Source: Herpetosiphon aurantiacus DSM 785 (lineage in GTDB: Bacteria > Chloroflexota > Chloroflexia > Chloroflexales > Herpetosiphonaceae). Taken from it: DNA of 64,000 nt. Positions 41,135 to 60,200 of the stretch are shown here, piece by piece. Made by a program: the position numbers and the translations under genes. How positions within the stretch are numbered: the stretch's first letter is position 1; every line of letters starts with the position of its first letter. The notes beneath the pieces are model-generated. The model saw nothing but the letters and a program-made list of their open reading frames with translations. It was not told the DNA's origin and did no database searches. The stretch lies in assembly GCA_000018565.1 (NCBI GenBank), contig CP000875.1, positions 2,185,199 to 2,249,198 on the forward strand. Direction: 5' to 3'.

Positions 41135-44100
41135 ATGAATGCAGATATTGAGGACATCTACCCACTTTCGCCGTTACAACAAGGGTTACTCTTTCATAGC
41201 CTGTATGACCCAGATTCGGGAGCCTATTTTGAGCAATTTACCTGTCAATTAAGGGGAATCCTTCAGCTTGACGCGTTTCGACGGGCTTGGCAACACGTGC
41301 TTGAGCGCCATGCTGCTTTGCGCACAGTCTTCGTATGGGAAGATTTGGCAGAACCGTTACAAGTGGTCTATCGGGCGGTGCAGTTGCCCTTGGATTACCA
41401 CGATTGGCGCGAATTAGATCCGCAGACCCATACGGCCCAGCTTGAAGCCTATTTCCAAACTGAGCGCCAACGTGGGTTTGATCTTAGCCAAGCGCCGTTA
41501 TTACGGGCTAGTTTAATTCAGTTGAGCGATGATTGCTATCAATTTGTTTGGTGTAATCATCACTTATTGCTCGATGGCTGGAGCATGGCGCTGTTATTAA
41601 AGGAAGCATTTAGTTACTACAGCGCTTTCTGCGAGGGTCGGGCATTGCGTTTAGCCCAAACGCGACCGTATCGCGATTATATTGCATGGCTACAAAAGCA
41701 AGATCAAGCCAAGGCCGAGCAATTTTGGCGAGCCAACTTAAGCCCTATTTCAGCCCCAACGCCGTTGGTGATCGAGCGCCCGAATTATGCCTTGCTTGGG
41801 CCAGAACAACCATGCGAACAGCGGATTGTGCTCGATCTTGCGGCAACGGAAACGCTACAGATCATGGCCCGCCAGCATAAACTCACGATCAATACCATCT
41901 TGCAAGGAGCTTGGGCCTTATTGCTTGGGCGGTATAGTGGCGAACGCACGATCGTTTTTGGGAGTCCAGTTTCCAGTCGTCCTGCCCAACTGGCTGGTAG
42001 CAATGCGATGGTTGGTTTATTTATCAATACCATCCCTGTGTGCATAACCATCAAACCTCAGGCAGCGGTCAGTGAATGGCTCCAAGCATTACAACAACAG
42101 CAGGTCGAGGCCCAACAATACCACTATACCGGCTTGAATCAGCTTCAAACGTGGAGCGCAGTGCCACGTGGTATACCACTGTTTGAGAGTATTTTGGTGT
42201 TTGAAAATTACCCCTTGGCCGCATGGCAACAATCGGGCAATGCAACCTTGCAACTGCAAGATGTGCGCTTTATTGAGCAAACCAATTATCCACTTTCAAT
42301 TGAGGCAGTGCTCGCACCAAATCTGGTGATTCAAGTGTTTTATGATCAACGGCGCTTTGAGCCAGCGACGATCACACGCTTGTTGGAGCATCTTCAAAAT
42401 CTATTGCTAAGCTTTGCCACCGCGCCACAAGCTCGTTTAGCCTCAATTGATCTATTGACCGCTGCTGAACGACAGGTGATGCTGCGGGACTGGAATACGA
42501 CGAATGTGCCGTTACCTAGCTCAATCTATTTACATAAGATTGTTGCGGCCCATGCCCAAGCTACTCCAGATGCAGTTGCATTGCGATTTGGTCAACAACA
42601 CCTGAGTTATGGCGAGTTGAATCGGCGGGCCAATCAATTGGCGGCCTATCTTCGGGCGCAGGGAGTTCCGCCTGGTAGCTTGGTTGGGCTGTGTGTTGAG
42701 CGTTCGCTTGAGTTGGTGCTTGGAATTTTGGCAATTCTTAAAGCCGGGGCCGCCTATGTACCGCTTGATCCGCGCTATCCGCTTGAGCGATTGCACTATA
42801 TGCTCAACGATAGCCAAGCTCAGGTTTTGCTGACTCAGCATTCGCTTAGCCAACAAATTCGCACTGAGCAACAACGGGTAATCTATCTTGATCACGATTG
42901 GCCAACGATTGCTCAATATCCCTCGTTTGAGCTAGCCGTACCACTTTGGCCTGAGAGTTTGGTCTATCTGATTTACACTTCTGGCTCAACTGGGCGACCT
43001 AAGGCAGTGCCAATTACCCATCGGGGTTTGGCTAACTTGGCCTATGCCCAAATTCAAGCCTTTGAACTTGATGCACAGCAGCGGATTTTGCAATTTGCCT
43101 CGTTGAGTTTCGATGCCTCGATTTTTGAAATCGTTATGGCACTCTGGTCGGGGGCAACCTTAGTGCTGGCTGATCAAGAGACTTTGTTGCCTGGCCCAAG
43201 TTTGATTGAATTATTGCAACAGCAAGCGATTACTCATATTACTGTGCCGCCGTCGGCATTAAAAGTGCTGCCCGAGGCAGAATTACCAGCATTATCTACG
43301 GTCATCGTGGCGGGCGAGGCTTGTCCGGCTGAGTTGGTGGCGCGTTGGGGTTTGGATCGACGCTTTTTCAATGCCTATGGCCCAACCGAAGCGACAGTTT
43401 GGTCGAGCCTCGCCTTGTGCGACGATCCAAACCAAAAACCCTCAATTGGCCGACCAATTGCCAATACTCAACTATATATTCTTGATCAATACCTGCAACC
43501 TGTGCCAGTTGGGATTGCTGGCGAGTTGTATATTGCTGGGCCTGGTTTGGCATGGGGCTATCTCAATCGGCCTGAATTAACTGCCCAGATGTTTGTGCCA
43601 AATCCCTTTAGTGCTGAGCCTGGCCAACGGCTGTATCGTTCGGGTGATTTGGCTTGTTTCTTACCCGATGGCTCGATTAACCACCTTGGGCGGGTTGATC
43701 ATCAGGTTAAAATTCGGGGCTTTCGGATTGAAACAGGCGAGATTGAGCAATGCTTGTGTGAGCATCCTTTGGTTCATGAAGCGGTGGCGATTGCCCGCGA
43801 TGAGCCAAATGGCCAGAAACGACTGGTGGCCTATGTGGTTGCCACGCCTGATAATCAACCAAGCAGCGCCGAATTGCGCACGTTTTTGCAAACGCGCTTA
43901 CCAGAACATATGCTACCAGCGGTATTTGTGCTGCTGGCTAGCTTACCGCTAACTCCCAATGGCAAACTTGATCGCCATGCCTTGCCTGCACCGAAAACGA
44001 CGCGCCATGCTGAACAAGCCTTGTTTGATGCACCCCAAACCGCCAATCAACAAATCTTGGCTGAGATTTGGGCCGATGTTTTGGGGCTAGCACAGGTTGG

Positions 44101-47100
44101 GATTCACGATAATTTCTTCGAGTTGGGCGGCGATTCAATTATTTGTATTCAAATTGTGGCCCGCGCCAACCAAGCTGGTTTGCGGCTAACCCCCAAGCAG
44201 GTTTTTGAACAACGCACGATTGCCAATTTGGCGACCGTGGTTGGCACTGGCCCCCAAATTCAGGCTGAACAAGGTTTAGTTAGCGGAGCCGTACCATTAA
44301 CCCCGATTCAACAGTGGTTTTTTGCGCAAAACTTGCCAAATTTTCACCATTGGAATCAATCGGCCTTGCTCGAAGTCCGCCAGCCGCTTGATCTAACCTT
44401 GCTTAGCCAAGTGTTGTATCAATTGCACATTCAGCACGATGCACTGCGCTTACGCTTTCAGTTCGGTACAGATGGGTGGCAGCAAATAAACCTCGACCAT
44501 GCTGCCACGCCCAGCATTAGCTTGATTGATTTAGCTGATTTGCCGCTTGAACAACAAAGCGTTGCAATTACTGAGCATGCTAATCAGCTGCAAGCGTGTT
44601 TGAATCTTAGCACTGGACCAGTGTTACAGGTTGCTTTATTCAATTTGGGAGCCGATCGGTCTGGACGCTTGTTGGTGGTGGCTCATCACTTAATTTTCGA
44701 TGGGGTTTCGTGGCGGATCTTTTTTGAAGATTTAGCGACGGCCTACCAACAAATTGCTCAGGCCAAGCCGATTCAGCTGCCTGCGAAAACCAGCTCATAC
44801 AAGGCTTGGGCCGAGCGATTGGTTGAGTATAGTCAATCAACAACCCTACAAGCCGAATTAACCTATTGGAATCAGCAAATTGGCGAGTTGCCAAGCTTGC
44901 CGATTGATTTCCCCGAGGCATTGGCTGACAATAGCGAAGCCTCGCAGGCCTTGGTGACGGTCGCCCTTGATGCGCCAACGACTGCCTTATTGCTCCACGA
45001 GGTGCCCAAAGCCTATCATACCCAGATCAACGATATATTGTTAACAGCCTTAGCCCGCTGTTTGAGTCAATGGAGCGGCCAAGCTGCCCTGCTGATCGAT
45101 TTGGAAAGCCATGGCCGCGAAGATCTGTTTGACGATCTTGATCTATCGCGGACGATTGGCTGGTTTACAGCAATTGCGCCCTTGCGCTTAACCCTCGCAG
45201 AAAGCGGTGAACTTGGTGCTGATCTTCAATCAATCAAAGAGCAGCTTCGTCAAGTTCCACAGCATGGTGTTGGTTATGGTATTTTGCGCTATCTTGGGCA
45301 ACAACCGATTCAGGCTCAGCCACAGGTTGGCTTTAATTATCTTGGTCAATTTGGCTATGGCTTGAGTGCTGATTCGCCGTTGGCATGGGCCTACGAATCG
45401 AGCGGAGCCGACCACGACCCAGCTGGGCTGCGACCACACCTGCTCGAAGTGGGCGGCAGTATTGTTGATGCCCAATTAACGATCCAATGGATGTATAGTA
45501 CCAATCTGTATCGCTCCACGACGATTGAGCAATTGGCGCATAGCTTGATGCACGAACTACGGGCAATCATTGCGCATTGTTTGCAACCAGATGTTGGTGG
45601 CTATACGCCTTCAGATTTTCCTTTGGCCACATTGCCAGCAGCAGATTTGGCTCAGTTGAATGCGCAATATCGCCAAATCGACGATCTGTATCCGTTGACT
45701 CCAACCCAACAAGGTATGCTCTTTCATGCCTTATATGAGCCTGAATCGACTGTCTACTTTATGCAGATTAGTTGGCTCTTTGAGGGCAAACTTGATCTTG
45801 CGGCGTTTCAAGCTGCTTGGAATCACACCCTCAATCAGCATACAATTTTGCGCAGTTGCTTTGTCTGGCAAGGCTTAAGCCAAGCCTATCAGTTGGTGCA
45901 TCCAACCGTGGAGATGCCGTGGGAGTATCTGGATTGGCGCGAGCTTGAACCTGAGCAACAAGCGATTAATCTGGCAGGGTTACTTGAGGCCGATAAAACT
46001 AAGGTTTTTGATCTCTCCCAAGCGCCGTTGATGCGGGTTACGTTGGTGCACTTAGCTGAGCATAGCTACCATTTTATTTGGAGCCAACACCATATTTTGC
46101 TTGATGGCTGGTGTACCAACATTCTGCTCAAAGAGGTGTTTCGCGCCTACGAGGCCTTGGTGCAGGGTTTGCCAATTCCGCTCAGTCAGCCAGCAATTCG
46201 GCCTTATCGTGAGTATATTGCTTGGCTGCAACGCCAAGATTTAGCCCAAGCCGAGGCCTATTGGCGTAAACGATTGCAGGGCTTTGCTAAAACTACACCA
46301 CTGCCACCAGCCAGCGGAGCCCAACAAGCTGGCGTTGATTACGCTGTCCAGAAGTTGCCGCTTGATCCAGCGCTCACAACCGCGATCTATACGCTGCTGC
46401 GTCAACATCAACTGACGATGAACACGCTGTTGCAAGGGCTTTGGGCCTGTGTTTTGGCGCATTACAGTGGCCAGCATGATCTTGTTTTTGGCAGCACGGT
46501 TTCTGGCCGTCCAGTCGATTTGGCTGGAGCTGAGAATATGTTGGGATTATTTATCAACACCCTGCCGGTACGAGTTCGCATCCAACCAACCTTGTCAATC
46601 ATTGAATGGTTACAGGATGTGCAAGCTCAGCAGGTTGAAATGCGTCAATATGAATATACACCAGTGGCGCAGGTTCAGCGCTGGAGCGAATTGCCGCCCC
46701 GTCAACCATTATTTGAAAGCGCTGTGGTGTTTGAAAATCTGCCGATGGATAGTAGCAATCAGGGTCAGTTTAATGACCTAACGATGAGCAATATTCAATC
46801 GTTTATTCAAAATAACTTCCCATTGACGATTCGCGGTGCGCCGAGTGCCACAACCTTCGAGTTGCATGTGCTCTACGATCGCCAGCGTTTTGCCACAACC
46901 ACCGTTTTAGCGTTGCTAGGCCAACTTGAAGCCTTGTTCAAGGCCGTGCAACACCAACCAAGCGCCTCATTGGCCGATTTGGCCCAGCGATTAGAGGATT
47001 TTGATCACCATAACCAAAAAGCGCAAGCTCAACAGAGCGAAACCAGCAGTCTGCAAAAACTAAAACACGTCAAACGTAAGGCTATCCGTGGGCAACAATC

Positions 47101-47107
47101 TGAATAA
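41135..47107 (+). CDS. NRPS module 2 plus condensation domain for module 3: C-A-PCP-E-C
   Basis: 1990 aa. C1 is DCL-like (LSPLQQGLLFH; HHLLLDGW near 142), matching the E domain before it. A (about 460-950) has YTSGSTGRPKA near 613; its pocket reads D-A-F-T-I-A-A-V-W, near the phenylalanine code DAWTIAAVC, so an aromatic or large hydrophobic residue is likely. PCP has LGGDSI (about 1000). E (about 1052-1476) has HHLIFDG, DLESHGRED, TIGWFTA and NYLGQ. The protein then ends with a second DCL-type C domain (LTPTQQGMLFH; HHILLDGW near 1652) and a basic tail (SLQKLKHVKRKAIRG). That last C has no A domain of its own and must work with the I-A-PCP-E protein two genes on. The stop overlaps an ATG (TAATG). 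Confidence 0.94.
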   Translation: MNADIEDIYPLSPLQQGLLFHSLYDPDSGAYFEQFTCQLRGILQLDAFRRAWQHVLERHAALRTVFVWEDLAEPLQVVYRAVQLPLDYHDWRELDPQTHTAQLEAYFQTERQRGFDLSQAPLLRASLIQLSDDCYQFVWCNHHLLLDGWSMALLLKEAFSYYSAFCEGRALRLAQTRPYRDYIAWLQKQDQAKAEQFWRANLSPISAPTPLVIERPNYALLGPEQPCEQRIVLDLAATETLQIMARQHKLTINTILQGAWALLLGRYSGERTIVFGSPVSSRPAQLAGSNAMVGLFINTIPVCITIKPQAAVSEWLQALQQQQVEAQQYHYTGLNQLQTWSAVPRGIPLFESILVFENYPLAAWQQSGNATLQLQDVRFIEQTNYPLSIEAVLAPNLVIQVFYDQRRFEPATITRLLEHLQNLLLSFATAPQARLASIDLLTAAERQVMLRDWNTTNVPLPSSIYLHKIVAAHAQATPDAVALRFGQQHLSYGELNRRANQLAAYLRAQGVPPGSLVGLCVERSLELVLGILAILKAGAAYVPLDPRYPLERLHYMLNDSQAQVLLTQHSLSQQIRTEQQRVIYLDHDWPTIAQYPSFELAVPLWPESLVYLIYTSGSTGRPKAVPITHRGLANLAYAQIQAFELDAQQRILQFASLSFDASIFEIVMALWSGATLVLADQETLLPGPSLIELLQQQAITHITVPPSALKVLPEAELPALSTVIVAGEACPAELVARWGLDRRFFNAYGPTEATVWSSLALCDDPNQKPSIGRPIANTQLYILDQYLQPVPVGIAGELYIAGPGLAWGYLNRPELTAQMFVPNPFSAEPGQRLYRSGDLACFLPDGSINHLGRVDHQVKIRGFRIETGEIEQCLCEHPLVHEAVAIARDEPNGQKRLVAYVVATPDNQPSSAELRTFLQTRLPEHMLPAVFVLLASLPLTPNGKLDRHALPAPKTTRHAEQALFDAPQTANQQILAEIWADVLGLAQVGIHDNFFELGGDSIICIQIVARANQAGLRLTPKQVFEQRTIANLATVVGTGPQIQAEQGLVSGAVPLTPIQQWFFAQNLPNFHHWNQSALLEVRQPLDLTLLSQVLYQLHIQHDALRLRFQFGTDGWQQINLDHAATPSISLIDLADLPLEQQSVAITEHANQLQACLNLSTGPVLQVALFNLGADRSGRLLVVAHHLIFDGVSWRIFFEDLATAYQQIAQAKPIQLPAKTSSYKAWAERLVEYSQSTTLQAELTYWNQQIGELPSLPIDFPEALADNSEASQALVTVALDAPTTALLLHEVPKAYHTQINDILLTALARCLSQWSGQAALLIDLESHGREDLFDDLDLSRTIGWFTAIAPLRLTLAESGELGADLQSIKEQLRQVPQHGVGYGILRYLGQQPIQAQPQVGFNYLGQFGYGLSADSPLAWAYESSGADHDPAGLRPHLLEVGGSIVDAQLTIQWMYSTNLYRSTTIEQLAHSLMHELRAIIAHCLQPDVGGYTPSDFPLATLPAADLAQLNAQYRQIDDLYPLTPTQQGMLFHALYEPESTVYFMQISWLFEGKLDLAAFQAAWNHTLNQHTILRSCFVWQGLSQAYQLVHPTVEMPWEYLDWRELEPEQQAINLAGLLEADKTKVFDLSQAPLMRVTLVHLAEHSYHFIWSQHHILLDGWCTNILLKEVFRAYEALVQGLPIPLSQPAIRPYREYIAWLQRQDLAQAEAYWRKRLQGFAKTTPLPPASGAQQAGVDYAVQKLPLDPALTTAIYTLLRQHQLTMNTLLQGLWACVLAHYSGQHDLVFGSTVSGRPVDLAGAENMLGLFINTLPVRVRIQPTLSIIEWLQDVQAQQVEMRQYEYTPVAQVQRWSELPPRQPLFESAVVFENLPMDSSNQGQFNDLTMSNIQSFIQNNFPLTIRGAPSATTFELHVLYDRQRFATTTVLALLGQLEALFKAVQHQPSASLADLAQRLEDFDHHNQKAQAQQSETSSLQKLKHVKRKAIRGQQSE

Positions 47108-47124: not shown

Positions 47125-48174
47125 ATGACGACATCAGACGATAAAAAGCCAAGCCTCAAAGGCCAATTAGGTGCAGGTCGCCGTTCTGTGAGCGTTTCCC
47201 AAGAAAGTCTGATCAAATCGCAGCCTTTGTTGAGCGATAGTGCCTTGCCACTGCTGGTCACTCCCGCTGTCGAAGGCCTGAATTTGATCACCTGGGCTAA
47301 TAGCCATCGCCCATTTATCGAAACCAATTTGGCCCAGCATGGCGGCATTTTATTCCGCAACTTCAACATTAAAACCCTCGAAGAATTCCAACGTTTTGTT
47401 AGCGAAATGTCGAATGAGCTTTTAGAATATACCTATCGTTCAACGCCGCGCAGCAAAGTCAGCGGCAATATTTATACCTCAACTGAATACCCCGCCGATC
47501 AATCGATTCCATTGCATAACGAAATGTCGTATACCACCAGCTGGCCGATGAAAATTTGGTTTTGCTGTTTGATTGCTCCCCAACAACAAGGCGAAACCCC
47601 GATTGCCGATAGCCGCCGCATCTATCAACGGCTTGATCCAGCGATTCGCGATCGTTTTGCTGAGAAAAAAGTGATGTATGTGCGCAACTATGGCGAGGGC
47701 ATCGATCTTTCATGGGAGAACGTGTTCCAAACCGATAATAAAGCTGACGTTGAAGAATTTTGCCGACTTAACCAGATTGATTTTGAGTGGAAGAGCGGCA
47801 ATCGTTTGCGCACGCGCCAAGTCTGCCAAGCTGTTGCCAAGCATCCCAAAACCAACGAAATGGTTTGGTTCAATCAGGCCCATCTCTTCCATGTGACCAG
47901 TCTGCCGGCGGCTGTGCGCGATATGTTGCTGGCAGAATTTAACGATGAAGATTTGCCACGTAACACCTACTATGGCGATGGTTCGCCGATCGAACCAGAG
48001 GTTTTAGCCGAAATTCGCCATGTGCTGGATCAAGAAACTGTGATGTTTCCATGGCAAGAAGGCGATGTGCTGATGCTCGACAATATGTTGGTGGCTCATG
48101 CTCGCTCGCCTTTTGTTGGCCCACGCAAAATTGTGGTGGGTATGGCCGAATCGGTTGATGCAGCGGCGATCTAA
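47125..48174 (+). CDS. SyrP/TauD-like Fe(II)/2-oxoglutarate dioxygenase, probable aspartate beta-hydroxylase acting on the assembly line
   Basis: 349 aa. The ATG at 47125 has AAGGAG 9 nt upstream; an earlier ATG at 47107 overlaps the NRPS stop. The TauD/TfdA fold has the iron ligands HxE (PLHNEMSY, about residue 133) and a distal His (DNMLVAHARSPF, about 325), with Arg residues (HARSPF, GPRKIVV) to hold 2-oxoglutarate. It resembles SyrP, which hydroxylates Asp bound to a carrier protein. It sits between a free C domain and an HHxxxDG-less C-like domain that precedes an Asp-type A domain. That is the arrangement known for interface-dependent beta-hydroxyaspartate formation in siderophore synthetases. 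Its N-terminus (GRRSVSVSQESL) recalls the tail of the free C protein (KRRSVVS). Confidence 0.9.
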   Translation: MTTSDDKKPSLKGQLGAGRRSVSVSQESLIKSQPLLSDSALPLLVTPAVEGLNLITWANSHRPFIETNLAQHGGILFRNFNIKTLEEFQRFVSEMSNELLEYTYRSTPRSKVSGNIYTSTEYPADQSIPLHNEMSYTTSWPMKIWFCCLIAPQQQGETPIADSRRIYQRLDPAIRDRFAEKKVMYVRNYGEGIDLSWENVFQTDNKADVEEFCRLNQIDFEWKSGNRLRTRQVCQAVAKHPKTNEMVWFNQAHLFHVTSLPAAVRDMLLAEFNDEDLPRNTYYGDGSPIEPEVLAEIRHVLDQETVMFPWQEGDVLMLDNMLVAHARSPFVGPRKIVVGMAESVDAAAI

Positions 48175-48191
48175 GTGAGGAAGGGATTACT

Positions 48192-51100
48192 ATGTCGGAT
48201 GCGATGATCGAGGGATTTCGGCTTTCCCCACAGCAACAGCATGTTTGGGCGCTCCAGCAATTGGATTCAGCCCAGCCTTATCGTACTCAGGGAACTATCG
48301 TGATTGAAGGCTCCCTCGATATTGCTCGCTTGCAGGCTAGTTTGTTGCAGGTTGTACAGCGCTACGAAATTTTGCGCACAACCTTTCACTATCTCCAAGG
48401 GATGGCCTTGCCGTTGCAGGTGGTTACCGAATTAAGCGAACTAGCATTGCCAAGCTATGATCTGAGCGAACATAGTTTGACTGATTTGCAAAGCCAATTG
48501 GCTCAGCAAGCCTTTGATTTTGCTGCTGGCCCATTGCTGCATGCCTGGCTTGGGCGTGAACATGCGCTAAAACATTATTTGCTGTTGAGTGTGCCAACGC
48601 TCTGTGCTGATAACCTGAGTTTGGTCAACTTAACCAGCGAGCTGGCGGCGATTTATGCTGCCGAGCCAACTACCGATGAGCCAATGCAATATATCGATAT
48701 TGCTGAGTGGCAGCACGAACTATTGGAAGCTGAAGAAACCGCTGCTGGCCGCAGTTACTGGCAACAACAAACCTGGCACGATGCGATTACCGTGCGGCCA
48801 GCGTTTGTTGCCAATCAAGCAGCGGCCCAAACGTTTCAACCGCAGCAATTGCCAATTCCGCTGACTGAACAACTAATTGAGCTGCTTAATCAGGCAAGTC
48901 AAACTTTAGCTGTGCCTGCTTCAGCGCTTGCCTTGGCTGCTTGGCGAACCTTGTTGTGGCGCTTGAGTGATCAAACCAATGGTGTGGTTGGCGTGGTTTG
49001 TGATGGGCGCAAATATGCCGAGCTTGAAACCACGCTTGGTTTATTTGCCAAAGCCGTACCGCTGGCTAGCCCGTTGGCAGCAGACCAGCAGTTTGGTCAA
49101 TTGGTCAAACAAGTGCAGCAAGAATATGTGGAGGCCTATGCTTGGCAAGAAAGTTTTCATTGGCCTGCAGAAGTGTCCAGTCAATTGGCCTTTTTCCCCT
49201 TTGGCTTTGAAGCGCTGACCACACCCAAACCGCTGGTGATGGCTAATCTCAGCTTTCAAGTCGTGCAGCAACGGGCTACGCTCAATCCATATGCAGCCCA
49301 CTTAACTTGGTTCAACCAACCCCAAGGATTTGCCGCTAGCCTGAATTTTGATGCTGGGTTGATTGCGTCATCGAGTGCTGAACGGTTGATTGAGCAATAT
49401 CAAACCCTTTTGACTGCTGCACTGAGCAACTTGAACACAAGCTTGGCTCAACTGCCAATTGTGGGTACAAACGAACGTCAACAGCTATTAATTGAATTTA
49501 ATCAAACAGCCGAGCCATTTGACGCTGCACGTTGCTTTCATGAGTTGTTTAGCGCTCAAGCAGCGATTACACCTGATCACCCAGCGGTTGTGGTTGAAGA
49601 CCAACAACTGAGCTATGCAGAACTTGAGGCACGTTCCAATCAACTGGCGCGAGAGTTGCTGGCCCGGGGAGTTCGCCCTGATCAACCAGTTGCTTTAGCC
49701 TTGGATCGCTCGCTCAACCTGCTGGTGGGTATTTTGGGTATTCTCAAGGCTGGCGGAGCTTATGTACCGCTGGATTTGGGATTGCCCAAAGAGCGTTTGG
49801 GCTTTATGCTGGGCGATATTCAAGCCTCAATTGTGGTGAGTGAAACCAGCCTGCAAGCCCAATTGCCTGAGCATGCTGCCGACTATCTTTGGCTGGATCA
49901 AGCTTGGCCGACGATTGCCGAGCATTCAAGCGAACCTGTTGCTGCTTCGGCGGTTCCTTCTAACTTGATGTATATCATTTATACCTCTGGTTCGACTGGC
50001 CAACCCAAAGGCGTTGGGGTCAGCCATCAAAGTCTTTATAACTATATTTCAAGTATTAGCCAACGGCTTAATCTGCCGCCACAGGCTAGTTTTGCCAGTG
50101 TCTCGACCTTTGCCGCTGATCTTGGACATACGGCGATTTTTCCAACCCTAACAAATGGTGGCACGCTGCACCTTATTACTGCTGAGCGAGCGAGCAATGC
50201 TAGCCAATTGGCCGATTATATGCAGCAGCATGCCGTTGATTGTCTTAAAATTGTGCCATCGCATTTGGCGGCGCTCTTGGCTGTGGCTGAACCTGCGCGA
50301 GTCTTGCCACGTCAGCGCTTGATTCTGGGCGGCGAGGCGGTTAGTTGGAAGTTGCTACAAACCTTGGCGCTACTTGCACCTGATTGCCAAGTATTCAACC
50401 ACTACGGACCGACCGAAACAACGGTGGGTGTGCTAACCAATCCACTGAGTGCGAATTTGCCAAGTGCTCAATCGGCAATACCAGCCTTGGGTCGTCCCAT
50501 CGCTAACACCCAAATCTATCTGCTCGATGTTCACGGTCAGCCTGTGCCATTGGGTATGACTGGCGAGCTGTATGTGGGGGGCGCGGCGCTGGCACGTGGT
50601 TATTGGCAGCGACCTGCGATTACGGCTGAGCGGTTTGTGCCCGATGGCTTAAGTGGCCAAACTGGCAGTCGCTTGTATCGTACTGGCGATGTAGCTCGCT
50701 ATTTGCCTGATGGCAAACTTGAGTTTTTAGGCCGCGCTGATGATCAGGTGAAAATTCGCGGCTTCCGGATTGAATTGGGTGAAATTGAAGCAGCGTTGCG
50801 TAACCACACGGCGATTGAACAAGCAGCGGTGATAGTGCGTGATGATCCTGCTGGCGATAAGCGTTTGGTAGCTTATTTGGTTGCAGGCCAACAACGCCCA
50901 CTTTCGTTACGCGAGTTGCGTAACTTTTTGAAACAGAGCCTGCCCGATTACATGGTTCCGGCGGCATTTGTGATGTTGGAACGACTGCCATTGAACGCTA
51001 ACGGCAAACTTGATCGTCAAGCCTTACCAGCGCCTGAACAGCAACAAACCAAGGCTAGCACTCAGATTGTGGCTCCACGAACCCCCGTTGAGACAACATT

Positions 51101-52769
51101 GGTTGACATTTGGAGCCAAGTGTTGGGTGGCAAGTCGGTGGGCATTAACAATAACTTTTTTGAGCTGGGCGGCGATTCAATTCTGAGTATTCAAATTATT
51201 GCCCGCGCCAGCCAAGCAGGCCTTAAGTTGACACCCAAGCAATTATTTGATCATCCGACAATTGCCGATTTGGCGCAAGTGGTGGCCACCACAACAGCAG
51301 ATCAACAAGCTCAGCAGCAATTGATAACTGGCCCTGTGCCGTTGACTCCGATTCAACATTGGTTTTTTGAGCAAGCCCTCGCCGAGCCGCAGCATTATAA
51401 TCAAGCAGTCTTTTTCGAAGTGCGCTTTGATCTCGATCCGGCGATTTTGGCTCAGGTGTTGCCTGAACTTGTGCGCCATCACGATGCCTTGCGCCTACGA
51501 TTTAGCCCGAGCGAACAAGGCTGGCAACAAGTTAATAGTGCCGATGTAGCGGTCGAGTTGCTGCACATTAATCTGGCCGCTGCGCCAGCCGAGCAGCAGC
51601 GCCAGTTGATGGAGCAAAAAGCCACTGAACTGCAAACTAGCCTTGATCTGATCAATGGCCCGTTGTTGCGTATGGCCTTGTTTGAGCTTGGATCCAATCA
51701 ACCAAGTCGCTTGTTGGTGATTGTGCATCACTTGGCGATTGATACTGTCTCGTGGCAGATTTTGTTTGCCGATTTACCGCTGGTATACGAGCAAATTCGT
51801 CAGCAACAACCAATTAATTTACCAGCCAAAACCAACTCATTCAAAGATTGGGCTGAGCGCTTGCAACGCTATGCAGGTTCGGCTGAACTTGAGCGCGAAG
51901 TTGCCTATTGGCTTGATCCTACCCGCCAACAGGTTCGCCCACTACCAGTCGATTATGCTGCTGAAGCCCATGCCAATACGGTTGCAAGCACCCAAAATCT
52001 GAGCCTACATTTGAGTGTTGAGGAAACGAAGGCCTTATTGGAAGTGGTTCCTCCGGTCTATAACACCCAAATTAACGATGCGCTATTGGCAGCCTTAACC
52101 CAAAGCATCAGTCAATGGCAGGGCAATCCAAGCGTGTTAGTCGAGCTCGAAGGCCATGGTCGTGAAGATATCTTGGATGATTTGGATATTTCGCGCACGG
52201 TTGGATGGTTTACTAGTCGCTTTCCGGTGTTGTTGCAAGCGAGCAAATCAGCCAATGCTGGCGATAGCCTACGCGCAACTAAAGAACAGTTGCGCCAAAT
52301 TCCACAGCGCGGGATTGGCTATGGTTTATTGCGCTATTTGCGTGGCGATGCCCAGCTGAGCCAGCAATTAGCCAATCTGCCCCAACCGCAACTGAGCTTT
52401 AATTATTTGGGCACGGTCGCCCACGATGTTTCGCAAACTGGTCCATTGGCTTGGACGAGCGAATCGAGTGGGCCAACCCGTAGCCCCGCAGCCTTACGCC
52501 GCCATTACCTTGATCTGACGATCTTGGTAACCGATCACATGTTACAGATGAATTGGACATATAGCCAAGCATTGCATAGTGCAGCGACGATTCAGCGCTT
52601 GGCTGAACGTTTTGTGTCCGCCTTACAAGCGATTATTCAGCATTGCCAACAACCCAATGCTGGTGGTTATACCCCTTCGGATTTTCCATCGGCCAACTTA
52701 AACCAAAAGAATTTGGATAGCTTTATCGCCAAATTACGCAACAGCGAGAACAGCACTCATGAAAGTTGA
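48192..52769 (+). CDS. NRPS module 3: interface (C-like)-A(Asp)-PCP-E
   Basis: 1525 aa. The first about 425 residues have the condensation fold (IEGFRLSPQQQHVW; RYEILRTTF), but where HHxxxDG should be the sequence is SVPTLCADNLS (about 135-145), so it cannot condense. I read it as an interface domain that recruits the hydroxylase encoded just upstream. A (about 450-946) has YTSGSTGQPKG near 596 and pocket residues D-L-T-K-I-G-H-V-G, near the aspartate code DLTKVGHIG. PCP has LGGDSI (about 995). E (about 1050-1483) has HHLAIDTVSW, ELEGHGRED, TVGWFTS and NYLG. Predicted unit is D-configured beta-hydroxyaspartate. Condensation is probably done by the C domain that ends the protein two genes earlier. 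Its 3' end overlaps the next gene by 11 nt. Confidence 0.93.
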   Translation: MSDAMIEGFRLSPQQQHVWALQQLDSAQPYRTQGTIVIEGSLDIARLQASLLQVVQRYEILRTTFHYLQGMALPLQVVTELSELALPSYDLSEHSLTDLQSQLAQQAFDFAAGPLLHAWLGREHALKHYLLLSVPTLCADNLSLVNLTSELAAIYAAEPTTDEPMQYIDIAEWQHELLEAEETAAGRSYWQQQTWHDAITVRPAFVANQAAAQTFQPQQLPIPLTEQLIELLNQASQTLAVPASALALAAWRTLLWRLSDQTNGVVGVVCDGRKYAELETTLGLFAKAVPLASPLAADQQFGQLVKQVQQEYVEAYAWQESFHWPAEVSSQLAFFPFGFEALTTPKPLVMANLSFQVVQQRATLNPYAAHLTWFNQPQGFAASLNFDAGLIASSSAERLIEQYQTLLTAALSNLNTSLAQLPIVGTNERQQLLIEFNQTAEPFDAARCFHELFSAQAAITPDHPAVVVEDQQLSYAELEARSNQLARELLARGVRPDQPVALALDRSLNLLVGILGILKAGGAYVPLDLGLPKERLGFMLGDIQASIVVSETSLQAQLPEHAADYLWLDQAWPTIAEHSSEPVAASAVPSNLMYIIYTSGSTGQPKGVGVSHQSLYNYISSISQRLNLPPQASFASVSTFAADLGHTAIFPTLTNGGTLHLITAERASNASQLADYMQQHAVDCLKIVPSHLAALLAVAEPARVLPRQRLILGGEAVSWKLLQTLALLAPDCQVFNHYGPTETTVGVLTNPLSANLPSAQSAIPALGRPIANTQIYLLDVHGQPVPLGMTGELYVGGAALARGYWQRPAITAERFVPDGLSGQTGSRLYRTGDVARYLPDGKLEFLGRADDQVKIRGFRIELGEIEAALRNHTAIEQAAVIVRDDPAGDKRLVAYLVAGQQRPLSLRELRNFLKQSLPDYMVPAAFVMLERLPLNANGKLDRQALPAPEQQQTKASTQIVAPRTPVETTLVDIWSQVLGGKSVGINNNFFELGGDSILSIQIIARASQAGLKLTPKQLFDHPTIADLAQVVATTTADQQAQQQLITGPVPLTPIQHWFFEQALAEPQHYNQAVFFEVRFDLDPAILAQVLPELVRHHDALRLRFSPSEQGWQQVNSADVAVELLHINLAAAPAEQQRQLMEQKATELQTSLDLINGPLLRMALFELGSNQPSRLLVIVHHLAIDTVSWQILFADLPLVYEQIRQQQPINLPAKTNSFKDWAERLQRYAGSAELEREVAYWLDPTRQQVRPLPVDYAAEAHANTVASTQNLSLHLSVEETKALLEVVPPVYNTQINDALLAALTQSISQWQGNPSVLVELEGHGREDILDDLDISRTVGWFTSRFPVLLQASKSANAGDSLRATKEQLRQIPQRGIGYGLLRYLRGDAQLSQQLANLPQPQLSFNYLGTVAHDVSQTGPLAWTSESSGPTRSPAALRRHYLDLTILVTDHMLQMNWTYSQALHSAATIQRLAERFVSALQAIIQHCQQPNAGGYTPSDFPSANLNQKNLDSFIAKLRNSENSTHES

Positions 52770-54198
52770 GAATTTAGAAGATATCTATGGTTTGTCGCCT
52801 ATGCAAAAGGGGATGCTTTTTCATACCCTGCTTGTACCCAATTCGAGTGCCTACCAAAATCAATCAGTTTGGCAACTTGAGGGCCAGCTGAATCTGGCAG
52901 CCTTTGAATGGGCTTGGCAACAGGTTATCCAGCGCCATTCAGTGCTGCGGACTGCCTTCTTTTGGGAAGATCTTGAGGAGCCGCTGCAAGTGGTGTTGCG
53001 CCAAGTTACGCTACCATTGCAGATCATGGATTGGCGGGAATACTCGGCTGAGCAGCAAGCCCAACAATTGGAGCCTTGGCTAGCGGCAGATTTAGCCCAA
53101 GGCTTTCAATTAACTGCCGCACCCTTGCTACGCTTGAGCTTGATTCAAATCGGCCCGACCAGCTATTGGTTTTGTTGGAGCCGCCATCATCTCTTGCTTG
53201 ATGGTTGGTCGCAGGCGATTGTGCTGAAGGATTTGTTTACCTTCTATGAGGTCTATTGCTATGGCGAGCAAGCCAGCTTTAATCAGCAGGCAGTTTTAGG
53301 CCCACGCCGCCCGTATGGCGAATACATTGCTTGGCTTCAACAGCAGGATCAGGCCAAGGCGGAGGCTTTTTGGCAACAACTGTTGAATAATTGGGCGGGG
53401 CCAGCGCGACTTAGTTTTGCTCGTCAAGGTCGTTCGCAGCACAGTTATGCTACCCAGCTGCTCCAGCTGGCAAGCGAATTAACTAGCCAAGTTCAAATGG
53501 TGATGCAGCAGGCCGAATTAACCATCAATAGCTTAATTCAGGGTGTGTGGGTTTGTCTCTTAGGTCAATATAGCAATCAACATGATGTACTGTTTGGGGT
53601 GACGGTTTCAGGCCGTCCGCCGAGCCTGCCAGCAATTGAAAGCATGGTTGGTTTGTTTATCAATACGCTGCCGTTGCGAGCTCAAATTCAGCCTGAGCAG
53701 CTGTTTCTCGATTTGCTCAAACAGGTGCAAAGCCAGCAGTTGGCCATGAGCCAATATGAGTATAGCTCGTTGGTTGATATTCAAGGCTGGGCCAAATTGC
53801 CGCGTGAACAAGCCATGTTCGAGACAGTCGTCGTGTTTGAAAATTACCCGATGGATACGGCGGCTTTTACCCAGCACTCAAGCCTTAAGCTCGATTTGCA
53901 GCGCACCTTTGTGCAAAATAGCATGCCATTGACCTTACGGGCAATCCCAGGCGATCAGCTAACCCTCGATGTGCTCTACGATACTGAGCGTTTTACCGTA
54001 ACCCAGATCGAACGAGTATTGCACGATTGTCAGTTGGTGTTGCAAGCCATTGCTGCCACGCCAATGATTGCCGTTGCTGAGATTATGCACCATTTACAAC
54101 AAGCTGAAGACCAATTTCAACAATTGGAAGAGCAACGATTAAGAGATGCTAATGCTCAGAAACTCAAAACGATCAAGCGCCGTTCGGTCGTTTCATAA
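52759..54198 (+). CDS. Free-standing NRPS condensation domain (DCL type)
   Basis: 479 aa, a single C domain: LSPMQKGMLFHTLL at the start, HHLLLDGW near residue 143, GVTVSGRPPSLPAIESMVGLF region present. DCL signatures fit the E domain that ends the preceding protein. It has no A or PCP. The C-terminal tail is helical and basic (AQKLKTIKRRSVVS), like the tail of the C-ending protein at 41135-47107. Both C domains precede a protein that opens with an interface domain, so the tail is probably a docking element. It would form the bond between module 3 and the Asp unit of module 4. Confidence 0.92.
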   Translation: MKVENLEDIYGLSPMQKGMLFHTLLVPNSSAYQNQSVWQLEGQLNLAAFEWAWQQVIQRHSVLRTAFFWEDLEEPLQVVLRQVTLPLQIMDWREYSAEQQAQQLEPWLAADLAQGFQLTAAPLLRLSLIQIGPTSYWFCWSRHHLLLDGWSQAIVLKDLFTFYEVYCYGEQASFNQQAVLGPRRPYGEYIAWLQQQDQAKAEAFWQQLLNNWAGPARLSFARQGRSQHSYATQLLQLASELTSQVQMVMQQAELTINSLIQGVWVCLLGQYSNQHDVLFGVTVSGRPPSLPAIESMVGLFINTLPLRAQIQPEQLFLDLLKQVQSQQLAMSQYEYSSLVDIQGWAKLPREQAMFETVVVFENYPMDTAAFTQHSSLKLDLQRTFVQNSMPLTLRAIPGDQLTLDVLYDTERFTVTQIERVLHDCQLVLQAIAATPMIAVAEIMHHLQQAEDQFQQLEEQRLRDANAQKLKTIKRRSVVS

Positions 54199-54257
54199 CT
54201 GGGGTTGTACCTCGCTGTTGGTCTCTATCTCGATATCGATCACGAAAGGGCTGGATC

Positions 54258-57200
54258 ATGCAAACAGGCTCCATTGAAGGATTTCGCCTCTCTCCCCAGC
54301 AAAAACAGCTATGGTCGCTTAAATATTCAGCGGAGATCAATCCCTACCTTGCTCAATGTAGCGTTGATATTCAGGGGGCGCTTGATGTTCAGCGGTTGCA
54401 AGCTGCCCTTGAAGCCTTAGTGCAACGCTATGAGATTCTGCGTACCCAATTTGCCCAACTTGAAGGCATGAGTATGCCCTTGCAGGTGGTAGGCGAGGGC
54501 CAATTGAATTGGCAAACGCTTCAGGCTGATGATCGCCAAGCTGCGTGGGATGAAGCCTTGGGCAGCCCGATTGACGTGGCACAAGGCCCAGTGCTTTGGG
54601 CGCGATTAATGTCGTTGAGCAACGAACAGCACCAATTAATTTTGACTTTGCCTGCTTTGACCGCCGATTTAACCACGTTGAATTTACTGGTTTATGAACT
54701 AGAACTGTTGTACAGTCAAGAAGGTCAGCCTGATCAAGAAGTAGCTCAGTATATTGATTTGGCTGAATGGCTGAACGATACGCTTGCTACCGATGCCAGC
54801 GAGCCAGGCCCAGCCTTTTGGCAGAGCCACGATCTGCAAACTGTTGCAAACCCCGTTTTGGCGACCTTGGCTGACCCAAGCCCAAGTTTCACTCCAGCAA
54901 TACACGAGCTGACCATTGCTACGCCCAATTTGCCGAGCCAGGAGCTGGCAAGTTGGTTGTTGGCGGCGTGGCAAGTGGTGCTTTGGCGCAATAGCAATCA
55001 AACCGAATTCCAACTTGGTTTGGGGCTCGATGGCCGCAACTATGCCGAATTAGAGCCAGCACTTGGCCTATTCGCCAAACACGTGCCATTCTTCGCCCAG
55101 ATTAAGCCCGAATTGCGGTTTAGCGATTTGGTCAGTCAAACCCGAACCGCCTACCAACAAGCAACCACTTGGCAAGAATATTGGGCCTGGGAGCAATTTT
55201 CCGATGCTGCCGCGCACCATTTAGACTATTGTTTCAGTTATGCCAGCCTTCCGCAACCACCATTTGAACATGCTCCCCGCTTTAGGCTGAGTCAGCAGGT
55301 CTGCTATTTTGAGCGCTTTGTGGCCAAACTCGAATTACTCGAGATCGGCAATATGCTGCAAAGCCGCTTGGTCTATGATGCACAGCTACTCTCGGTGGAG
55401 TTTGTGCAACGTTTGGCGGAACAAGTAGCTACGGTTTGTCAGCAGGTTCAACAATCCGACCAGCTTTTGCTTGGCGAATTAGCAGTTGTTGGAGCCAGCG
55501 AACGCCAGTTTTTGCTTGAACTTAATCGTCGCTACCAAACCTTTGATCTCCAAGTAACTATTCCTAGCTTATTTGCGGCTCAAGCCCAACAACACCCAAC
55601 CGCCCAAGCAGTGGTGTTTGAAGATCAATCGTTGACCTATCAGGAGCTTGAGGGTTACTCCAATCAGCTTGCATTGCAATTACGAGAGCACGGCGCGGCG
55701 AGTGAGCAGATTGTGGCGATCTATCTTGAGCGTAGCATCGCCAGCATTGTGGCAATTTTGGGGGTGCTCAAGGCTGGGGCTGCCTATCTGCCGATCGATC
55801 CGAGCGTACCAAACGAGCGGCTTGAACTCATGCTGGCCGATAGTCGGGCTGTGGTTGTGGTTACTGATCAGGGTTTGCAAACCCGCTTAGGCCATATGCA
55901 AAGCCCAATTGTATTAATTGATCAGCTGCTGAGCAACCCGCCCCAAGCTGATTTGGGCCTCAACGTAGCGATTCAGCCCGAGCAACTGGCCTATATCATT
56001 TATACCTCTGGTTCAACTGGTAAGCCCAAAGGTGTGGCAATTGAGCATCGTCAACTGGCTAATTATGTCCAGAGCATTATCCAAGAGGTCGATCTCCGAC
56101 CTGGAATGCAATATGCCATGGTTTCGACGCTTGCTGCCGATTTAGGCCACACTGTGCTGTTTCCAGCCTTGTGTCATGGCGGTACGCTGCATTTGATTGC
56201 CCAAGATCGGGCGATTAACGCCGATGCCATGGCCGAATATATGCATGCCAAGGCCATTGATGTACTGAAGATTGTGCCATCGCATCTCACCGCACTTTTG
56301 GCTGCTAGCCAACCTGCCCATGTTTTGCCCAAACAACGTTTGGTGCTGGGTGGCGAAGCCAGCAGTTGGGATCTGATTGAGCGCCTTGAACAACTTGCAC
56401 CAACTTGTACGATTGTTAATCACTATGGCCCAACCGAAACTACCGTGGGCGTGCTCACAACCAAACTAAGTGGTTGCTCACCTGCGGCGCGTGGCTCAAT
56501 TGTTCCGCTTGGTCGGCCAATTGCTAATAGCTATGTTTATGTATTGGATGCTGCTCGGCAGCTTGTGCCATTTGGGGCAATTGGCGAGCTGTATATTGGC
56601 GGGGCTGGTGTAGCCCGTGGCTATCTCAATCGGCCAGAATTGACCAACGAACGCTTTGTGACTGATCGCTTGAGCACCAATCCAAGCGATCGTTTGTATC
56701 GCAGCGGCGACGTGGTACGCTATCGGCCTGATGGCTTGCTGGAGTTTTTGGGTCGCAGCGACGATCAAGTTAAAATTCGTGGCTATCGGGTTGAGCTTGG
56801 CGAAATTAGCCATACACTTGAACGGCATCCACTAGTCCAACAAAGCACGGTCCAACTGCGCGAGCACGCGAGCGGCGAGCAACAGCTGGTTGGTTATATT
56901 GTGCCAAATCCGGCCTTAGCCCTACCAGTTAGCAATTTCCTGCGATTCAAGCAACAAGGGATATTTGCTGAGCATGAACATTTTGAATTGCCCAACGGCA
57001 TGTTGGTAGTGCACCAAAATCGCCATATGACGGTGCCGCTGTATAACGAGATTTTTGAAGATCAAGTCTATGTGACCCAAGGTATTCAGCTTAACGATGG
57101 CGATTGTGTTTTTGATGTTGGGGCAAATATTGGCTTGTTTAGTCTGTTTATTGGCCAAAACTATCGCAATATTCGGCTCTTTTCATTTGAGCCAATTCCG

Positions 57201-60200
57201 GCTACCTGCCAAGTGTTGCGTTTGAATGCTGAACTCTATGGCTTAAATGCCCAAGTTTTTGAATGTGGCATCGCCGATGCCGTGAAGCAAGAAACCTTCA
57301 CTCACTATCCCCATTTTTCAGGAGCCTCAGGGCGTTTTGCTGATGTGCTCAAAGATAAAGCTGCCGTGCAAACCTTCGACTTGAACATTCGTAAGGAATA
57401 TTTTTCAAGCACGGTTGGCGCGTTGGCAGGCGATCAAGAGCAAGCTTTTATGGAAGACTTTACTGAAGAATGGATGCAAGGGCGTTGGGATAGTGAACAG
57501 ATTGTCTGTCAGTTACGCACAATTTCTGATGTGATTAGTGAACATAACGTGCAGCAGATCGATTTACTCAAGATCGATGCTGAACGCAGCGAAATCGATG
57601 TGCTGAAGGGAATTGCGCCCAGCGATTGGCCCAAGATTCGCCAAATTGCCATGGAAGTGCATAGTGCTGAATTGCGCGACGAGATTAAACAATTACTCGA
57701 AGCCCAAGGCTACCATGTGATTGCCGATCAAGCTGAGCAATTTGCTGATACAGCGTTGTTCAATATTTATGCCTTGCAACCAGCAGTCTATCAAGCCAAC
57801 CAACAAGCAAGTGCTCGCCCAACGACCCCAACCTGGGCTTGGTGCAACCCGACGAGCATCATAAATGCGCTGCAACACTATAGCCACGAGACCCTGCCTG
57901 AGCCAATGCAGCCAGCAGCCTTGTTATTATTGCCAGCGATTCCACTGACCGCTAATGGCAAAATTGATCGTCAAGCCTTGCCTGTGCCAGAACAAACTAT
58001 AGCGAATACGCTAACCACTAGTTATGTGGCTCCGCGCAACACCGTTGAAGATGTTTTAGCGGGTATTTGGGCCAAGGCTTTCAATCAGCCCCGCATCGGG
58101 ATTCACGATAAATTCTTTGATCTGGGTGGGCACTCGTTGATGGCAACCCAGTTGATTGCTCGGATTCAACAGGCGTTTCAGGTGCAAGTGCCGTTGCGTA
58201 GTCTCTTCGATACCCCAACGATTGCGGGCTTAGCTGAGCAGATCGATGCCTCGTTACGGGCAGGCTCAGTTTTGCAGATGCCACCAATTACCGCAGTCGC
58301 CCATGATCGAGCCTTGCCGTTGTCGTTTACCCAAGAACGCTATTGGATTCTCGATCAATTTGAGCCTGGTAATCCAGCCTATAACGTGCCAACTTATGCC
58401 CGACTTAAAGGGCCACTTAGCCATGAATTATTGGAGCGAGCGTTAACCGAGATTGTGCAGCGGCACGCGATTTTACGCACAACCTTCATCGTGCTCGACG
58501 ATCAACCGATGCAAATTATTCATCCTGAAGTGGCGGTTAGCTTACCTTTGGTGGATTTGAGCGACTTGCCAGTTCAAGATCGTGAACAACAGGCACGGCA
58601 GATTGTGGCCACTGAAGCCCGAACCTCGTTCGATCTGGCTCAAGGCCCATTGTTCCGTGGTCAATTGATTCGGCTTGATGAGACTGACCATATTTTGTTG
58701 ATTATGATGCACCACATCATCACTGACGATTGGTCGAAGAATTTGCTGATTCAAGAGTTGACCGCCTTGAGTTGGGCCTACTTTCGCGGTGAACCTTCGC
58801 CATTGCCACCACTTGCGATTCAATATGCCGATTTTGCCCACTGGCAACGTCAATGGTTCCAAGGAGAAGTTTTGGAATCGCAGTTGGAGTATTGGGTCAA
58901 ACAGCTTGAAGATGCGCCAATGGTGCTGAATTTGCCCTTGGATCGTCCACGTCCAGCCTTGCAGAACTTCCAAGGGCTAAGCCTGCCAGTCTATTTGCCG
59001 CGACGCTTAACCGATCAGCTGGCGGCGCTCAGCTTGCGTGAAGGCGTGACCATGGCCATGACCTTGTTGGCAGGCTTTCAAACCTTGTTGCATCGCTATA
59101 GCGGTCAATCGGATATCGTGATTGGCTCGTATATGAGTGGGCGCGGCCAGGTTGGTACTGAACATTTGATTGGCTTTTTCCTCAATACCTTGCCATTACG
59201 GGTTAGCCTAGCTGGTGACCCCAGCTTTGAAGTATTGCTCAAACGCGTGCAAGAAGTCTCGCTGGGAGCCTACTCGCATCAAGATTTGCCATTTGAAAAG
59301 CTACTGCAACGCTTGCAGCCTGAACATAATTTGAGCCATACTCCAATCTTCCAAGTTGGCATTCAACTAGTCAATGCCTTGAAATCTGAGGCTGAGTTGG
59401 GGGCGCTGACGATCAGCGACGTTGAAAGTAGCCAAACCAGCGTGATGGGCACGGCCCAGCTTGACCTCACCCTGACAATTCGTGGTTTGGGTTCCGATGA
59501 AGGTCTGAATGCCTCGTTTATCTACGATTCAACCATTTTTGAGCAGGCCACGATTGCCCGTATGGCTGGCCATTTGCGGCAATTGCTCGAAAGCATTGTG
59601 GCCCAACCTGAACTGCCAATTTCCCAATTGAGTTTGCTCGGCGAGAACGAAACTGAGCAGTTGTTGGATTCGTGGGCTGGTGATCACGCCCAATACCCGA
59701 GTGATGGCTCGATTCAGGCTTGGTTTGCCAACCAAGTTGCCCAGAAGCCAACCGCGACGGCGCTCGTATTTGGCGAGCAACAACTGAGTTATGCCGAGCT
59801 TGATCAGCGTTCGAGCCAACTGGCGGGCTATTTGCAAAGCCTTGGTGTGCAAGCATTTGCGACAGTTGGGATTTGTATGCAGCGCTCGCCTGAATTGGTA
59901 GTGGCGATGCTGGGCGTGCTCAAAGCTGGGGCAGGCTATGTACCGCTTGATCCAGCAACTCCAACCGAGCGGATTCGTTTTATTCTGCGCGATACGGCTG
60001 CTCCGGTGTTGCTGACCCAGGCCGCGCTCAAGCTCGATCTGGCTGATGCCGATTGGCAGATAGTGGCGCTTGATCAGCTTGATCTGACGGCTGATCACCC
60101 AGTACTCAACCCATTGCCAAGTAGTTTGCTCAACGATCTGCCTGTTTATACGATTTATACCTCGGGTTCGACCGGAACACCCAAAGGTGTGCCGATTTCG

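Follow-up and report, generated by a model that had tools for sequence, protein, structure and literature searches.

A putative pair of interface-type aspartate modules with one shared beta-hydroxylase and an embedded FkbM methyltransferase in a hydroxyphenylglycine-type assembly line of Herpetosiphon aurantiacus DSM 785

We analysed a stretch of 64,000 nucleotides (the window, C1:2185199-2249198) of Herpetosiphon aurantiacus DSM 785, whose genome comprises 6,785,430 bases, 6,346,587 of them in C1. The window carries a nonribosomal peptide synthetase (NRPS) assembly line with two consecutive aspartate modules, 3 and 4, and a stand-alone hydroxylase of the Fe(II)/2-oxoglutarate-dependent TauD/SyrP type. 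We consider it probable that both modules load Asp and beta-hydroxylate it by means of this one shared hydroxylase, giving epimerised beta-hydroxyaspartate (beta-OH-Asp) in module 3 and then beta-methoxyaspartate (beta-methoxy-Asp) in module 4, and that the product is not primarily a siderophore. In the proposed mechanism, the real condensation (C) domain of each Asp module either closes the preceding gene or has a gene to itself, and an interface-type (I), an adenylation (A) and a carrier (T) domain follow it. The I domain, a C fold having lost the catalytic histidines, would dock the hydroxylase and present it to the loaded Asp, and the single enzyme, whose gene lies between the C and the I domain of module 3, would act in trans on both modules. 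The epimerisation (E) domain of module 3 would invert the alpha carbon, and an FkbM methyltransferase embedded in module 4 would O-methylate the new hydroxyl. The pairing of an inactive C-like domain with a beta-hydroxylase is already published; Reitz et al. in 2019 reportedly described inactive C-superfamily interface domains paired with TauD-type beta-hydroxylases in Asp modules of siderophore NRPSs. What appears to be new here is a variant of this pairing, with an FkbM domain embedded in an interface-type module.

Module 3 is arranged as C, hydroxylase gene, I-A(DLTKIGHVGK)-T-E, and module 4 as C (own gene), I-A(DLTKVGHVGK)-T with the FkbM domain set into the A domain and no E domain (Table 1). 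Both I domains open with IEGFRLSPQQ, and the position of the HHxxxDG motif reads SVPTLCADNLS in one and LTLPALTADLTTL in the other. Because each comes after a C domain with an intact motif (HHILLDG and HHLLLDG), both are extra, non-condensing domains. An earlier note on this DNA had described two C-fold domains with this common start and without HHxxxDG, a TauD/SyrP-like enzyme with HxE...H ligands encoded right before the first, and an Asp-code A domain behind each, all of which we recovered in the translations and the Pfam searches. Absent from that note were the FkbM domain, the separate C gene directly before I domain 2 and the hydroxyphenylglycine-type genes.

The predicted structure of I domain 1 has a condensation fold, with a predicted local distance difference test (pLDDT) score of 90.1, and C domains head the list of its PDB matches (E 4e-36). 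Glycopeptide X domains are catalytically inactive and recruit a P450 to the finished peptide. Lower among the fold matches was such an X domain (4tx2/4tx3; 20-21% identity), a C-fold domain that docks the oxygenase OxyB in a complex, according to the 4tx3 title. Modelling covered domain 1, and I domain 2 was assigned to the Condensation family by sequence (Pfam). Conserved blocks of the I domain read QYxDxAEW, DGRxYxEL and WQExFxW and lie on one of its faces. We then placed both in trees of the condensation superfamily, leaving out C-fold fragments that spanned no more than about 300 profile positions (70 of the 382 matches in the first set). The first tree held 312 domains, taken from 80 related loci and from four stretches of the H. 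aurantiacus genome, and 61 of them formed one clade on a long branch (support 0.994). When nine plasmid-derived loci were added, 67 of 354 domains formed the I clade (support 0.998), including both window domains and the domains of both beta-OH-Asp modules of the cyanobacterial siderophore cyanochelin B. Relations inside the clade were not used because some internal nodes are weak (0.0 in the first tree, 0.49 in the second).

A profile built from 23 I domains was compared with a general C profile from 22 C domains of this genome. The I profile scored higher in all 67 clade members, 44 of which lay outside its training set, and in 3 of the 287 other domains, by 2-7 bits, all three of which keep HHxxxD. 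I domain 2 scored 436 bits on the I profile and 349 bits on a C profile whose 24 training rows include both window I domains. The tree and the profiles led us to drop an assignment as ordinary C or E domains; as the earlier note had proposed, sequence evidence supports that the window domains are interface-type, in a family with modules proven to incorporate beta-OH-Asp. A profile for interface domains is also present in antiSMASH 8 (PMC12230676, in part).

The position of the I domains and the A domains they precede are consistent across the clade. Most (61/67) begin within 60 residues of the start of their open frame, and 58 are preceded on the same strand, at a distance of 6 kb or less, by a further C-fold domain, which keeps HHxxxD intact in 57 of these cases. 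The next A code was unreadable for 14 members; the 53 readable ones comprise 41 with GH[V/I]G, which we take to specify Asp, and 9 with GE[V/I]G, presumably Asn. Such codes follow 50 of 53 I-clade domains vs 9 of 141 other C-fold domains. Since the 80 loci are the best 80 of 96 picked by hydroxylase similarity, the counts drawn from them (A codes, upstream C domains and hydroxylase residue 140, below) are biased. Two outlying cases were also seen. At L169 (genome G070, positions 1-4735), a weaker I-type domain (252 vs 159 bits, on the same pair of profiles as I domain 2, the C profile again trained with both window I domains) lies behind a hydroxylase with Asn motifs and precedes the code DATQIALIDK; this module possibly uses another substrate. 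On the Klebsiella pneumoniae plasmid pKPN-8c6e (L126:11843-15972), an NRPS/polyketide synthase (PKS) cluster carries a divergent I domain with an Asp code and a hydroxylase, with an IS5-like element near.

To relate I domains to hydroxylases, we used surveys of 244 cyanobacterial and 301 Chloroflexota genomes that were not picked by hydroxylase similarity, scoring the best few candidates per genome (at most 5 and 7 in Chloroflexota, 7 and 8 in cyanobacteria). Seventeen cyanobacterial genomes carry the 34 I domains detected, and the hydroxylase is present in every one of them; one more has a hydroxylase with no I domain detected. Thirty-three of these 34 domains follow a hydroxylase at a distance of at most 1.1 kb, in 32 cases at most 400 bases, and 33 of the 35 hydroxylases are placed directly before an I domain, 17 in frames shorter than 600 residues (stand-alone) and 16 in longer ones (fused). 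Among the Chloroflexota, 7 genomes have I-type matches of at least 340 bits (at least 19 domains), and all 7 belong to the 9 hydroxylase-bearing genomes. This line was drawn once a gap from 345 down to 291 bits had become apparent, and divergent I domains escape it, since the scores of 7 of the 67 members of the clade stay under 340. Fisher tests gave 3e-25 for cyanobacteria and 9e-13 for Chloroflexota, values that are only indicative because related genomes are not independent. Twelve Chloroflexota stretches hold 15 I domains, followed by eight Asp-type codes, six Asn-type and one other.

The shared C fold would also suit degenerate condensation domains that act as spacers or acceptor gates, with hydroxylation independent of them. 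Many hydroxylases collected here, mostly actinobacterial, have no I domain in their 10 kb flanks, and in the cystobactamid pathway CysJ hydroxylates CysH-bound Asn without the AMDH domain too (PMC7966384, in part). The near one-to-one co-occurrence in cyanobacteria, its strength in Chloroflexota and the restriction to Asp and Asn codes speak against such a role. Two Pseudoalteromonas genomes with other SyrP-like enzymes (G301 and G302, with 29 and 33 C-fold matches) point the same way, as none of these matches exceeds 246 bits on the I profile; the four best that were examined are ordinary C domains, and weaker ones may include divergent I domains. We regard the spacer or gate explanation as very unlikely, and docking of the hydroxylase by the I domain as likely, judging from these sequence patterns.

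The window hydroxylase has a predicted TauD-like structure (pLDDT 84.8) and carries the motifs HNEMSY and NQAHLFH. H137, E139, H331 and R340 are invariant in an alignment of 16 sequences, and of 120 homologues 119 have a complete HxE...H, the remaining one being gapped at the last His. Residue 140 follows the A code of the next module. Forty-four hydroxylases directly precede an I module for which an Asp or Asn code could be read (three more precede other codes). In the 33 Asp cases residue 140 is M or L 27 times, S 6 times and never N; in the 11 Asn cases it is N 9 times, S twice and never M or L. A search of the genome found two such hydroxylase genes; the window enzyme has M, and the paralogue about 400 kb away (C1:2632404-2633462) has N and Asn-type motifs. 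Sequence supports an enzyme of the carrier-bound Asp-hydroxylase type, and an assignment as a hydroxylase for Asn was dropped, as both the motif class and the A codes point to Asp. New hydroxylase classes of cyanobacteria, CyanoBH_Asp, have been named (PMC12971057, in part). In L046, L052, L061, L119 and 16 cyanobacterial matches, the hydroxylase forms the terminal part of an NRPS and precedes an I domain of the kind found behind stand-alone enzymes; use of the I domain is thus independent of the enzyme being separate.

The closest system of solved product structure is that of cyanochelin B from Leptolyngbya sp. NIES-3755, which contains two beta-OH-Asp residues (PMC12628792, in part). According to the same source, residue 6 is made by the stand-alone hydroxylase CcsK with CcsL, an Asp module with an E domain, and is predicted to be D-threo, and residue 4 comes from a module behind a fused hydroxylase. 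CcsK and CcsL (BAU16062-BAU16061) repeat the arrangement of module 3: an NRPS gene ending in E-C, the stand-alone hydroxylase and I-A(Asp)-T-E. Both beta-OH-Asp modules of cyanochelin B have the code DLTKIGHVGK, identical to that of module 3, and the hydroxylase CcsK is 53% identical to the window enzyme (I domains, 33-38%). Unlike in the window, the other Asp module of cyanochelin B is served by an NRPS-fused hydroxylase, the stretches examined gave no FkbM match, and the cluster is that of a siderophore with adjoining uptake genes. The siderophore interface domains that Reitz et al. reportedly described share with those of the window the combination of an inactive C-superfamily domain, an Asp A domain and a TauD-type beta-hydroxylase; the window cluster differs in being of the hydroxyphenylglycine type. 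Carrier-bound beta-hydroxylation of Asp in module 3 is very likely. By analogy with CcsK and CcsL, its product may tentatively be given as D-threo-beta-OH-Asp, and that of module 4, which has no E domain, as L-erythro by the rule for stand-alone hydroxylases cited in PMC12628792 (in part).

Module 4 raises the question of how far the shared enzyme reaches. Hydroxylation could be confined to module 3, with I domain 2 a relic and the FkbM domain inactive or acting elsewhere, such as on the side-chain carboxylate: module 4 has no hydroxylase of its own, and 33 of the 34 cyanobacterial I domains have one immediately upstream. We judge this unlikely, considering that I domain 2 retains the family signature in its profile scores, that L066, L074 and L077 likewise contain I modules lacking a hydroxylase of their own, and that the S-adenosylmethionine (SAM) motif of the FkbM domain is intact. 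The claim of the earlier note that a single enzyme serves both modules accordingly stands as plausible, given the two hydroxylase genes of the genome and these further second I modules, and we infer rather than observe the hydroxylation in module 4, because that module lacks a hydroxylase of its own. Sharing of the module 3 enzyme by module 4 is likely.

The FkbM domain (PF05050, 8.2e-15) occupies residues 953-1153 of the 2419-residue protein, just past position 57000, where the earlier note ended. It sits between the A core, which bears the code, and the A10 lysine motif NGKIDR (residue 1233, near 57954), and both parts of the A domain are present. NRPS N-methyltransferases belong to families other than FkbM; a label as N-methyltransferase was dropped, the domain being FkbM PF05050. 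We found five modules with FkbM behind the A core, namely module 4, L083, L082, L201 and L202. L083 is an I module with an Asn code. L201 and L202 are cyanobacterial modules with the code DFWNIGMVHK, which we take to specify Thr, a residue with a native beta-hydroxyl; their FkbM domains are 47-50% identical to that of the window and equally placed, and the modules differ from it in their Thr-type code and in showing no I domain or hydroxylase within the flanks examined. O-methylation of the beta-hydroxyl is supported because all five residues have such a hydroxyl, native or introduced by the proposed mechanism, which also speaks against an FkbM domain that is inactive or acts elsewhere. From sequence, conversion of beta-OH-Asp to beta-methoxy-Asp in module 4 is likely. 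The L082 case (L082:2596-15111, an Acidobacteria metagenome-assembled genome) has two tandem hydroxylase genes and then an I-A module of unreadable code with two tandem FkbM domains, which looks like double hydroxylation and double O-methylation.

Products with comparable residues are known. A54145 is a large NRPS product with 3-methoxy-Asp, in which separate enzymes carry out hydroxylation and methylation. Methoxy-aspartic acid is named in PMC9113097 (in part), with lptJ/K/L in a reference title there, and puwainaphycins A-E contain O-methyl-threonine (PMC4219810, in part). In cystobactamid, SyrP-like hydroxylation of carrier-bound Asn and then O-methylation give beta-methoxy-asparagine (PMC7966384, in part); this system, CysH/CysJ/CysQ, has a separate methyltransferase, an AMDH domain and a stand-alone module, and an interface domain is unmentioned in the portion of that paper at hand. 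Judged from titles and abstract starts, which give weak evidence of absence, the papers that our searches listed describe neither an interface-type module with an embedded FkbM domain nor this hydroxylase pair in Herpetosiphon, and a search with the A-code strings matched no paper.

The earlier note had concluded that both Asp residues keep free beta-hydroxyls and that the product is a siderophore-like lipopeptide. Cyanochelin B, the nearest relative of proven structure, is indeed a siderophore with two beta-OH-Asp residues. Of the two potential bidentate ligands in the product of the window cluster, one beta-OH-Asp is expected free and the other probably O-methylated. Several findings led us to drop siderophore as the product class. 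The FkbM domain is embedded in the second Asp module. The genome paper of 2011 lists PKS/NRPS 2 with 1 PKS and 11 NRPS modules, genes for hydroxyphenylglycine production and the product 'Glycopeptide', and predicts myxochelin, at another locus, as the siderophore of the strain (PMC3368417, in part). Our cluster appears to be that 'Glycopeptide' entry, a match that does not go by locus tag but by its 11 A domains, its genes of the hydroxyphenylglycine type and the LanM locus that precedes the entry in the list. No gene for siderophore uptake (FecCD or a binding protein) was found among 19 non-NRPS proteins in and behind the window that were scanned with Pfam, a subset of the genes there; as a positive control, the paralogous cluster encodes FecCD and a Peripla_BP_2 protein close to the hydroxylase gene. 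A siderophore-like product is hence improbable in our view, and a decorated peptide antibiotic is more likely than an iron-scavenging compound. Tentatively, we expect a peptide that contains hydroxyphenylglycine, is probably glycosylated, bears an aromatic or polyketide cap and is not primarily a siderophore.

The paralogous cluster (C1:2600000-2650000; L033-L035) holds the hydroxylase with Asn motifs, an I domain followed by the code DLTKVGEVGK (L034:3899-6791) with a stand-alone C gene before it, and genes for FecCD, Peripla_BP_2, an ABC ATPase and a penicillin amidase. It is a candidate for the production of a beta-hydroxyasparagine metallophore, and two further Herpetosiphon genomes (L175, L176) share its hydroxylase and I-domain genes.

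Some observations weigh against the proposed mechanism and product class. The closest proven relatives make siderophore ligands, cyanochelin B being itself a siderophore. Of the 19 Chloroflexota I matches, 12 lie within 10 kb of a detected hydroxylase and 15 within 30 kb, among the best candidates per genome. In genome G281, an I-A module with an Asp code (L167) has no hydroxylase in the 20 kb examined, and the only hydroxylase found is NRPS-fused, in another cluster about 1.5 Mb away; in the cyanobacterium G477, the I domain and the hydroxylase are about 19 kb apart on opposite strands. Three more large open reading frames with FkbM (L101, L203, L204) do not have the embedded arrangement. Finally, the dioxygenase that we assign to the hydroxyphenylglycine pathway exceeds the cut-off for an ordinary HPPD.

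The assembly line starts with a PKS module, and module 1 has the code DIFHFGLIIK, which we take to be hydroxyphenylglycine-like. Behind module 4 follow module 5 (C-A-T) and two NRPS genes with six A domains, up to C1:2270180, which brings the whole line to 11 A domains. Further downstream are genes for an HPPD/HmaS-like dioxygenase, an aminotransferase, a glycosyltransferase, an aromatic ammonia-lyase and an acyl ligase. A second copy of the dioxygenase, 57% identical, lies at C1:3519588. The ammonia-lyase and acyl ligase genes stand beside the end of the line (C1:2270240-2273470; L037:1241-4471) and could supply a cinnamoyl-type starter to the PKS. The Herpetosiphonaceae contig L039 is collinear with window positions 37317-48424 at 66-70% DNA identity; it keeps the module 1 code, has a different module 2 code and an 86% identical hydroxylase, and includes the start of I domain 1. 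In the Chloroflexota survey, three of five further genomes of the genus gave no hydroxylase or I-type match, and the other two, G078 and G274, gave the paralogous cluster only, among the best candidates per genome.

Table 1. Features of the assembly line and their positions in the window. KS, ketosynthase; AT, acyltransferase; DH, dehydratase; MT, methyltransferase; KR, ketoreductase; FMN, flavin mononucleotide.
Feature	Position	Strand	Basis
Hydroxylase gene (355 aa), Fe(II)/2-oxoglutarate, TauD/SyrP-like, stand-alone	47107-48174	+	Pfam TauD 1e-48
NRPS gene of module 3 (1525 aa)	48192-52769		Pfam Condensation, AMP-binding, PP-binding
Stand-alone ordinary C domain of module 4 (479 aa), HHLLLDG intact	52759-54198	+	Pfam
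NRPS gene including module 4 (2419 aa)	54258-61517		Pfam Condensation, AMP-binding, PP-binding
Ordinary C domain of module 3, HHILLDG intact, at end of preceding NRPS gene	45689..46996	+	
Interface-type domain 1, C fold without HHxxxDG	48216..49490	+	Tree, profile, model, fold match
A domain of module 3, code DLTKIGHVGK (Asp)	49548..51026	+	Pfam and code reading
Carrier and E domain of module 3; HHLAID and EGHGRE present	51096..52685	+	
Interface-type domain 2, C fold without HHxxxDG, no hydroxylase gene of its own	54282..55517	+	Tree, profile
A-domain core of module 4, code DLTKVGHVGK (Asp)	55566..56879	+	
FkbM methyltransferase embedded in A domain of module 4, SAM motif DVGANIG	~57114-57716	+	PF05050 8.2e-15
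Carrier domain of module 4	58053..58241	+	Pfam
PKS module KS-AT-DH-MT-KR and two carrier domains, start of assembly line	29422..36462	+	
Module 1, C-A-T-E, code DIFHFGLIIK	36459..41120	+	
Module 2, C-A-T-E, code DAFTIAAVWK, and C domain of module 3	41135..47107	+	
FMN-dependent dehydrogenase, candidate hydroxymandelate oxidase of the hydroxyphenylglycine pathway (putative role)	27274..28350	-	

Other genes were noted around the assembly line. A DUF3326 protein gene lies between two of its NRPS genes (window 61554-62879). Between the two NRPS clusters of the window are a LanM-like lanthionine synthetase (DUF4135 and LANC_like) and a peptidase-C39 ABC transporter (19663-27003), in agreement with the lantibiotic locus listed in PMC3368417 (in part). 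A separate assembly line lies in the first 14 kb, where homologues of SbnA and SbnB (11676-13727, both above the NCBIfam cut-off), which serve 2,3-diaminopropionate synthesis, sit behind an NRPS with a thioesterase-like end.

Taken in its most specific form, our proposal is that one hydroxylase, two paralogous I domains and the embedded FkbM domain constitute an on-line beta-methoxy-Asp cassette of the order C, then I-A(FkbM)-T, which places D-beta-OH-Asp and beta-methoxy-Asp as neighbours in a hydroxyphenylglycine glycopeptide; we put this only a little above an even chance. The locus is a natural experiment on the function of interface domains, with one enzyme, two paralogous I domains that both have Asp A domains, one of them beside the enzyme gene, and a methyltransferase behind one of the two. 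It also suggests a sequence rule that separates Asp from Asn hydroxylation, based on hydroxylase residue 140 and A-domain position 322, and it warns that beta-hydroxylase genes alone are insufficient to call a cluster a siderophore cluster. If the proposal is true, interface-directed hydroxylation would extend beyond siderophores and module 4 would offer a portable beta-methoxy-Asp module, and the interface system would be a general device for carrier-bound hydroxylation of Asp and Asn with add-on tailoring rather than a siderophore trait.

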